DNA of 64,000 bases from an uncultured Prochlorococcus sp. (GTDB lineage Bacteria; Cyanobacteriota; Cyanobacteriia; PCC-6307; Cyanobiaceae). The position numbers and the translations under genes are program-made. Within the stretch, counting starts at the first letter, position 1; every line of letters begins with the position of its first letter. The notes beneath the pieces are model-generated. The model was not told the DNA's origin, searched no databases, and saw only the letters and a list, made by a program, of their open reading frames with translations. Where the stretch lies: positions 1-64,000 of the forward strand of contig CACNQS010000005.1 in assembly GCA_902622625.1 (NCBI GenBank), in the 5' to 3' direction. Below are positions 10,341-56,512 of this stretch, piece after piece.

Positions 10341-10357
10341 ATTTTTTTTAGAAAAAA

Positions 10358-47543: not shown

Positions 47544-47972
47544 ATGAAACCTTATGGGAATCAACTTAATTTAAAAAAAAAAGTTTTATATGAAAGAAAA
47601 AAAAATTCTGAAAAAATATCCCTAATTCATATCAAATTAATACATCAAATTTTCGACACCATTAATATCTCTCTTTTGGTATTAATTTTCACCTTATTTT
47701 TCTTATCTTTAAATAGTCAAAGAAAATGGTCAAATACATATAAAAACTTATCTAAAACAAGAGCTATTAATAATAATCTCATTGATTATATTTCTAAAAT
47801 TGAGGAATTTTATATTAGTGAACTTGAGTCTATCAATACTTATAGAAAAACTAAACCTGAAGATTTAATCTATCTAGATAAACTTCCAGAAAAAAAAGAA
47901 GGTTTATTTAAGAAAAATTTAAGTAGTTTTATCGCAGGTTTTAGTGAAAGCAAATATCAAAGGGGATATTGA
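47544..47972 (+). CDS. small bitopic membrane protein, candidate FtsL
   Basis: Basic N-terminus, single TM (ISLLVLIFTLFFLSL), helical extracytoplasmic part; stop overlaps ftsI ATG (TGATG). Confidence 0.6.
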   Translation: MKPYGNQLNLKKKVLYERKKNSEKISLIHIKLIHQIFDTINISLLVLIFTLFFLSLNSQRKWSNTYKNLSKTRAINNNLIDYISKIEEFYISELESINTYRKTKPEDLIYLDKLPEKKEGLFKKNLSSFIAGFSESKYQRGY

Positions 47973-53373: not shown

Positions 53374-54066
53374 CTAAAATTCAATACACTTTTGTGCTTT
53401 TATTCCTTGTTCTTTAAATGGATGTCTTATTAGTTTCATTTCTGTAACTAAATCAGCGTAATTGATAATTGAATCAGATGCTCCCCTTCCAGTTAAAACA
53501 ATATGATTTTTTCTATTATTTAGGCTTCTTAAAAAAGTGATTATTTCCTCGGGTGCAAGATAACCAAGTTTTGTCGCAATATTAATTTCATCAAGAATGA
53601 TAAGTTTATAAGATTCTTTTTGAATATATTTTTTGGCTAATTGCCAAGCCTCTTGAACTAATTTTTCATCTCTTATTCTGTCTTGTGTTTCCCAAGTAAA
53701 ACCCTCTCCTAATGAATGCCAAGATATGTTTGAAGACAAGTTTTTAAGTGCTTTTTCTTCTCCAGTCGTCCAGCCTCCTTTGATAAATTGAATTATTGCT
53801 ACTTTATAGCCATGCCCTATCGTCCTTAAAGCCATACCTAAAGATGCAGTTGTTTTGCCCTTGCCATTTCCTGTAAAAACAATCAATAATCCTTTTTTTG
53901 TTTTTCTGATTTGTAGTCTTTCGGCTTGAATATCTTTTCTTTTTTGCATTCTTTTTTTATATGAGCTCTCATCGCTTTCCGGTGATAATTTACCTCCCAT
54001 TCCAAGTTTATTTGCTTGGTTATCGAGGTTAAACATTTTCTCAGAAGATGAAGGTTTTTCTTGCAT
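53374..54066 (-). CDS. cobO: cob(I)yrinic acid a,c-diamide adenosyltransferase
   Basis: GLLIVFTGNGKGKTTASLGMALRTIGHGYKVAIIQFIKGGW, LTGRGASDSII. Confidence 0.95.
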   Translation of the reverse strand: MQEKPSSSEKMFNLDNQANKLGMGGKLSPESDESSYKKRMQKRKDIQAERLQIRKTKKGLLIVFTGNGKGKTTASLGMALRTIGHGYKVAIIQFIKGGWTTGEEKALKNLSSNISWHSLGEGFTWETQDRIRDEKLVQEAWQLAKKYIQKESYKLIILDEINIATKLGYLAPEEIITFLRSLNNRKNHIVLTGRGASDSIINYADLVTEMKLIRHPFKEQGIKAQKCIEF

Positions 54067-54100: not shown

Positions 54101-54952
54101 TTAAATATTTTTAATTCTTTTTACTTTTAAAAGTGCATTATTCACTGCCTGTTGTTGATCTCTTTTAGTAATCCAGTGGTGATAAGTTTGAGTATGTAAA
54201 CTAACTGAATGTCCCATCATTCTGGCAGCCACAGTATCAGGTAAATCATAAAAAATTGTTCTAACTGCCCAAGCATGTCTTAAATCATAAGGTTTTATTT
54301 CTAAAGAGTAACGCTTAAACTGATCTGTAATTTTTTTTCCAATATTCTGTAGGGTTGTAATTTTAAGATCTCTATTAATATTTGGTAGAAGTTCTGGATT
54401 CTCACCAAGTTTTGATAATTCGAACTTTTCCACCCATTCAGGATGAAATGGCCAAACTTGATGTTCCCCAGTTTTAGTCGTAGGTAAAACTCTAATAATT
54501 TTGTCCCCAAAATTAGTAAGAGAACTTAAATCACAAAAAAATACTTCATGATTCCTTAATCCATATGTAGCCATCAGACCAAAAACAAATTTCCAAGACT
54601 TGTTTGGTATGGTCTCCCACAGTTCCTCTATTAATTCGTCCTTGGGAAGATCTCTAAATCCTGCTTTGTTCAGACCATATCCCCTAGAGTTTAATTTCCA
54701 ATCTTCTGGTAGTTTAATATCCAAAAACTTAGCCAAAACATTTAGAGAAGTGGCGCATTGTTTCCTACTTCTGGTACCTTCCTTATAACTTTCAAGTGTT
54801 TTTTGAAATATTTTTTCTAAAGCTTCATTCTCATAATCATTGTAAATATTTAGGATTCTTTTCATATATGGTTTGTAAGAACTTCTCCATGTAGTTTTTC
54901 TAGTGCTGGTTCGAAAATCACTTTTATTTTCTTTAAAAAAAAAATTCCTCAA
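54101..54952 (-). CDS. tyrosine recombinase/integrase, core-binding and catalytic part
   Basis: GLRNHEVF, YDLRHAWAVR, MMGHSVSLHTQTYHHW (R...YxxR...GH...Y). TTG start lies inside the 3' end of the upstream ORF. Confidence 0.9.
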   Translation of the reverse strand: MRNFFFKENKSDFRTSTRKTTWRSSYKPYMKRILNIYNDYENEALEKIFQKTLESYKEGTRSRKQCATSLNVLAKFLDIKLPEDWKLNSRGYGLNKAGFRDLPKDELIEELWETIPNKSWKFVFGLMATYGLRNHEVFFCDLSSLTNFGDKIIRVLPTTKTGEHQVWPFHPEWVEKFELSKLGENPELLPNINRDLKITTLQNIGKKITDQFKRYSLEIKPYDLRHAWAVRTIFYDLPDTVAARMMGHSVSLHTQTYHHWITKRDQQQAVNNALLKVKRIKNI

Positions 54953-55271
54953 ATTGATTTAATCTTTTTGGGAATTCAAAACCATCTTTTTTTTCCTTTT
55001 TATAAGGTTTGTCTATCCAATTAATCCAATCAAATTGATTCAATTCCAATTGCAAATTGATTAATTGCAATTTTTTTTTGGCCTCCTCTAATCCAGAAAT
55101 ATCAGCCTTTAAACCAAGAGATATTCTTTGAATTTTAAAGTTACTGTTGTCTTCTTTTGAGGGTAGTGAACCACGAATATTTAATTTCTCTCCTCTTTTC
55201 TCAATTTTAAGCTTGCTGCCTTGAGTAGCAAATTTATCATTGACATTATTAATTTCCTGAATTACGTTCAT
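54933..55271 (-). CDS. arm-type DNA-binding N-terminal part of the integrase (split ORF)
   Basis: KLKIEKRGEKLNIRGSLPSKE...IQRISLGLKADISGLEEAKKKLQLINLQLELNQFDWINW resembles integrase N-terminal domains; ends at a T10 run, out of frame with the downstream integrase ORF. Confidence 0.7.
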   Translation of the reverse strand: MNVIQEINNVNDKFATQGSKLKIEKRGEKLNIRGSLPSKEDNSNFKIQRISLGLKADISGLEEAKKKLQLINLQLELNQFDWINWIDKPYKKEKKDGFEFPKRLNQFEEFFF

Positions 55272-55336: not shown

Positions 55337-56512
55337 ATGGATAAAATAGGCGTCTTACTAATGAATTTAGGAGGGCCTGAACGCATTAGTGATGTAGGCC
55401 CATTCTTATACAATCTTTTTTCTGATCCAGAAATTATCAGGACACCTTTCCCTGTTTTTCAAAAGCCTTTAGCTTGGTTAATTAGCACGCTTAGGAGTAC
55501 TACTTCACAACAGGCCTACCTTTCTATAGGTGGAGGTTCACCTATCAGAAGGATAACTGAACAACAAGCAAGAGAATTACAATCTAAATTAAGGGACAAG
55601 GGGTTTAATGCTACTACTTATATCGCTATGAGGTATTGGCATCCTTTTACCGAATCAGCAATTGCTGATATGAAAGCAGATGGCATAGATCAAGTTGTTG
55701 TAATACCCCTGTATCCACATTTTTCGATAAGTACTAGTGGTTCGAGCTTTAGGGAATTAAAAAAATTGCGAGATTCTGATGGTGAATTTAAGAAGGTTCC
55801 AATGAGATGTGTAAGGAGTTGGTTTAGTCAATCAGGTTATTTAAAGTCTATGGTCGAATTAATTTCTGAACAAATTTCACTTTGTGAAATACCTTCAAAA
55901 GCCCATATATTTTTCACTGCTCATGGAGTTCCTAAGAGTTACGTAGAGGAAGCTGGAGACCCTTACAAGCAACAAATTGAAGATTGTTCTTTATTAATTA
56001 TAAATGAGCTGGAAAAATATTTAGGGCATAGTAACCCTCATACACTTTCTTATCAAAGTAGAGTTGGTCCCGTTGAATGGTTAAAGCCTTATACAGAAGA
56101 AGTGTTAGCTGATCTTGGAAGATCAAATGTTAATGATCTGATTGTGGTCCCTATAAGTTTCGTTGGAGAGCATATCGAAACATTGCAAGAAATTGATATT
56201 GAATATAAAGAAATTGCTGTAAAGGCTGGTATTAAAAACTTTCGGAGAGTTAGGGCTTTAAATACTCATCCTACTTTTATTGAAGGCCTTAGTGATCTGG
56301 TGATTTCCTGTTTGGAAGGACCTCTTATTAATATAGAGGAGGCTTCACAGTTGCCAGAAAAAGTTAAACTTTATCCCCAAGAGAAGTGGCAATGGGGTTG
56401 GAATAATAGTTCAGAAGTGTGGAACGGAAGGGTTGCAATGATTATTTTTCTTGTGCTTTTTATTGAACTTATTTCAGGCTCAGGACCCTTACATAAATTA
56501 GGCATTTTATAA
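55337..56512 (+). CDS. hemH: ferrochelatase with C-terminal HLIP/CAB-like helix
   Basis: [30 protein letters not shown]-terminal [23 protein letters not shown]. Confidence 0.97.

Follow-up and report, generated by a model that had tools for sequence, protein, structure and literature searches.

Why should a tyrosine recombinase gene of Prochlorococcus be divided exactly at a run of ten T's? The question arises from a stretch of 64,000 nucleotides of an uncultured member of the genus, referred to here as the window, in which the two halves of such a recombinase are found as separate open reading frames (ORFs). The arrangement could be an evolved way of expressing or switching the gene, a sign that the gene is decaying, or the trace of one additional base.

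The split and its position

On the minus strand the sequence around the site reads ...CAATTTGAGGAATTTTTTTTTTAAAGAAAAT..., and the N-terminal and catalytic ORFs are out of phase at the T10 run (Table 1). The 283-aa ORF has an apparent TTG start and reads LRNFFFKENKSDF... across the same ten T's. The initial annotation had described a T10 run separating two recombinase ORFs, and both the sequence and the ORF list bear this out; its estimate of about 395 aa for the fused protein gives way to the 389 aa of the intact protein in relatives. The 112-aa and 283-aa ORFs are 96% and 98% identical, respectively, to that single protein, and because both parts are joined in the 389-aa protein of relatives, the observation of a split gene goes beyond chance. 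The window contains just one further run of ten bases, an A10 at 47573-47582, and its length is equal in both complete relatives.

Table 1. Features of the recombinase locus (window positions)
Feature	Position	Strand	Basis or remark
T10 run (plus-strand A10)	54935..54944	-	one T inserted here; relatives have T9
N-terminal ORF, 112 aa, ends ...FEEFFF*	54933..55271	-	ORF list; protein of relatives; model of an intact relative
Catalytic ORF, 283 aa, apparent TTG start	54101..54952	-	ORF list; PF00589 match; catalytic residues
In-frame A9 run (minus strand), the gene's second long homopolymer	55071..55079	-	frameshifted in 0 of 81 loci
cobO, downstream neighbour	53374..54066	-	adjoins the recombinase in all family loci checked
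hemH, divergent neighbour	55337..56512	+	adjoins the recombinase in all family loci checked

Run length and reading frame in relatives

The gene was searched for in 266 genomes of the genus and found in 234, including all 87 near-complete ones. Run length was read with a pattern that allowed any spacing after six T's, and 137 genomes matched. This comparison of homopolymer length across related genomes, which had been proposed as a check on the initial reading, gives T9 in 134 genomes, TTTTTTTTC (T8C, in the same frame) in one and T10 in two; T8, T11 or any other length was seen in none of the 137. The near-complete genomes matched at the run have T9. The two T10 carriers are the window's genome and one other draft, G092 (AG-424-P16), and among the matches listed a short frame of 285 codons is found only in these two. 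Nearly all relatives among those matches have a single open frame of about 389 aa, and not the two separately conserved ORFs that would have pointed away from a broken gene.

In several of the fetched loci the run is broken by a substitution (TTCTTTTTT, TATTTTTTT, TTTTTCTTT, TCTTTTTTT, TTTTTTTTC), and its length and frame are always kept. This means that the frame is conserved and the slippery run is not, so selection maintains the reading frame and three residues, mostly Phe. The nine T's themselves probably reflect a preference for TTT as the Phe codon where the genome is AT-rich.

The identical T9-to-T10 change on contig C12 of G092 arose separately. The two T10 genomes are not sisters, and common descent of both T10 alleles was rejected by the tree, in which their common ancestor spans 56 of the 81 tips.

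A core gene with fixed neighbours

The recombinase is flanked by hemH and cobO in all 30 family loci fetched, with pyrH next wherever the locus extends far enough. Its protein is present in 166 of 167 near-complete Cyanobiaceae genomes, and many complete Prochlorococcus genomes have no other PF00589 gene. Outside the Cyanobiaceae, 101 of 211 sampled Cyanobacteriia have a full-length match with E of about 1e-100 or better, by a hand count of the table.

Mobile elements are expected to show a variable position, a tRNA target or mobile cargo, and none of these was found at this locus: a tRNA is absent nearby, and the neighbours hemH, cobO and pyrH are fixed. The window has just two tRNAs, at 10357 and 10810, in agreement with the earlier remark that no tRNA is adjacent. 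The same annotation had found a stand-alone integrase among housekeeping genes hard to explain. The placement is correct, and the puzzle resolves with the fixed neighbours and near-universal presence of the gene: it belongs to the picocyanobacterial core, is inherited vertically and is not an insertion.

Protein anatomy

The catalytic ORF matches PF00589 with 33.9 bits, against a curated cut-off of 27.1. The residues R239, K266, R331, H354 and Y363 (389-aa numbering) are invariant in 24 family members and are found in the window ORF as well, which upholds the catalytic tyrosine-recombinase motifs initially reported there. These R, K, R, H and Y residues are the likeness to the tyrosine recombinase/phage integrase superfamily (PF00589; lambda Int architecture). 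In the 24 family members, the usual first His of HxxR is replaced by Y328.

The structure of an intact relative was modelled with low overall confidence (mean pLDDT 66, pTM 0.35), and the model was used for domain order only. Residues 3-76 (pLDDT about 89) are predicted to form an N-terminal domain in which a three-stranded sheet lies between two helices in sequence order; a weak linker at 87-97 leads to the core-binding helices and then the catalytic domain. The fragment modelled alone gave a poor model. Such an order, with an N-terminal beta-sheet/helix domain, core-binding helices and a catalytic domain, would resemble the architecture of lambda Int. The T run codes for residues 110-112, which the model places where the first helix beyond the linker ends, so the break parts the N-terminal domain from the catalytic residues, all of which lie in the second piece. 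The 112-aa ORF would thus comprise an arm-type-like DNA-binding domain, the linker and nearly the whole of the first helix for core binding. The arm-type-like N-terminal domain proposed earlier for the upstream ORF, together with a catalytic domain in the downstream one, is supported by the model, the PF00589 match and the catalytic residues.

Foldseek ranks XerA, the Tn1549 integrase and lambda integrase highest, with no E value clearly below 0.001, and the fold likeness of the model to these and to Cre is weak. Unlike phage integrases, the recombinase is not in a mobile element, being fixed between hemH and cobO without a tRNA. Its closest relatives on viral contigs share only about 30% identity with it across their full length.

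Noise, decay and selection

The genes of the window were compared with those of two complete genomes, G012 and G043. About 60 are full length against both, and in the 64 kb the recombinase alone is broken. Among the 51 A/T runs of at least eight bases in the window, T10 is the sole in-gene run that differs in length from both complete relatives. General homopolymer noise in the contig was rejected on these grounds, with one in-gene run altered and one gene split. An apparent second broken gene at 1074 (petA) was also rejected, as a misread ORF start between petC and petA, upstream of petA.

In a survey of nine real genes at up to 81 loci, containing 280 coding 9-base runs, a split was seen in the recombinase alone (2 of 81), and none of the approximately 209 other coding 9-base runs was frameshifted. 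A split in one further ORF of the survey was disregarded, the ORF being spurious. The probability of both T10 cases falling at the same site of the same gene, hand-worked from the survey counts, is about 0.07, and the repeated T10 hints weakly at some tolerance or local slipperiness.

For the catalytic part, dN/dS is 0.051 for this copy against relatives and 0.049 among relatives; for the N-terminal part the values are 0.164 and 0.097, which is somewhat raised. The amino-acid divergence of this copy is mid-field, ranking 40 and 57 of 81 for the two parts. Judged by these comparisons, the recombinase is under strong purifying selection. This copy has no stops or indels besides T10. A hidden intact second copy was considered and rejected, as none was found in the same genome.

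Explanation of the split

The assembly comprises 1.26 Mb in 56 contigs and is 81.6% complete, and the genomes closest to it are labelled as single-cell genomes of Prochlorococcus. From these relatives, the number of contigs and the completeness, it is likely a single-cell draft. We are confident that a single gene for a 389-aa tyrosine recombinase has here been cut by a very recent, private insertion of one T, real or technical, and that neither programmed frameshifting, nor phase variation, nor an evolved division of the gene is involved. The in-frame T9 (FFF codons) would have become T10 by one added T, and its source could be replication slippage in the cell that was sampled, or a fault introduced afterwards by whole-genome amplification (polymerase error), sequencing or assembly. 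A real mutation and an artefact are about equally probable. If the insertion is real, mainly the truncated 112-aa N-terminal piece would be made. Going by the slippage literature, RNA-polymerase slippage on T10 may then yield some full-length enzyme, which would be an incidental rescue and not a designed switch.

One could consider instead that the gene has evolved to be expressed at full length through programmed transcriptional or ribosomal slippage on T10. In bacteria, A/T runs of at least nine are slip-prone, with documented cases of slippage on nine A or T, and in AT-rich endosymbionts slippage at long poly(A) stretches corrects 12-50% of the transcripts of frameshifted genes, restoring the frame (PMC5009743, a review). 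Indel formation and bypass also increase together with repeat length (PMC3812077). However, the relatives with T9, 134 of the 137, are already in frame without any shift, the run can be lost by substitution as long as the frame is kept, and an out-of-frame slippery site is not retained in the matched genomes or the fetched loci. Incidental rescue in this single genome is possible, but an evolved feature is very improbable. A phase-variable recombinase, turned on and off by a change between T9 and T10, would be in keeping with two independent T10 genomes altered at the same site. Such a switch is nonetheless highly unlikely: relatives lack a mixture of lengths, with just 2 off-length runs in 137 and neither T8 nor T11 among them, the matched near-complete genomes have T9, the run is freely interrupted in several relatives, and the recombinase is placed amid housekeeping genes.

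The broken reading frame of this copy is also what an established pseudogene of a decaying integrase would show, but the dN/dS of the catalytic part is unchanged, divergence is unremarkable and further disabling changes were not found in this copy; with the gene present in every near-complete genome of the genus, this explanation is extremely improbable. Of the four options offered by the initial annotation, a recent one-base insertion and a technical error fit the data, and evolved slippage and phase switching do not.

The nearest parallel to the insertion is the homopolymer frameshifts of AT-rich genomes (endosymbionts; single-cell drafts), which share a one-base change in a long A/T run of a conserved gene. 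The recombinase case differs in that it is known from a single draft genome and from its DNA sequence alone. When a draft genome appears to contain a split gene, relatives should be consulted before slippage is invoked. A one-base insertion in a core gene is ordinary; the core recombinase is worth specialist attention.

A possible Xer-like role

What might this recombinase do? By family models it is not XerC/D, and its scores are far below the Xer family cut-offs (XerA 37.7 bits vs 220; XerS 17.4 vs 267; XerD 13.9 vs 329.6). Its best NCBIfam match is a XerA-type model. Like XerC, XerD and XerA it is universal, single copy and vertically inherited, and it is often the sole tyrosine recombinase in Prochlorococcus; a universal single core copy is a Xer trait, found here with conserved synteny in the near-complete Cyanobiaceae. 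Unlike them it has an extra N-terminal domain. XerC/D (NF001399) scores above the cut-off in just 2 of 242 genomes of the class. The complementarity between the recombinase and XerC/D-like genes across the class is only suggestive.

Palindromes were searched for at 660-1040 kb of three complete genomes, and no candidate for a dif-like 28-bp target near the terminus rose above background there. The best-placed dif candidate is a 26-nt near-palindrome, ATTGTATTAATTTGAATATCATTAAT, at 830186-830211 of G033, identical in three Prochlorococcus genomes; it lies inside a coding stretch and falls within the ter interval published for MED4. It was rejected as not significant, since 152 stretches of this length in the region are equally conserved. 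About 180 kb on the terminus side of G033 (about 770-950 kb; length 1,657,990) is inverted relative to G012 and G019, by match strand.

In published work, dif prediction failed for all cyanobacteria tested (PMC3025954), xerC was called rare in cyanobacteria by a survey with an slr0733 query (PMC5101192), and the DNA of Prochlorococcus vesicles peaks at the terminus (PMC10913375). Since XerC/D are rarely met, dif prediction failed and vesicle DNA peaks at the terminus, a Xer-like role of the core recombinase seems a reasonable idea. The fuller proposal is that an unrecognised core cyanobacterial tyrosine recombinase does the Xer job, in dimer resolution or terminus processing, via a lambda-Int-like N-terminal domain; this is possible but doubtful. 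If true, it would supply the Xer function in a phylum where XerC/D are seldom identified and dif has so far eluded detection. The Prochlorococcus genome is among the smallest of free-living phototrophs, and one tyrosine recombinase is kept everywhere in the genus, in a fixed place and under strong selection.
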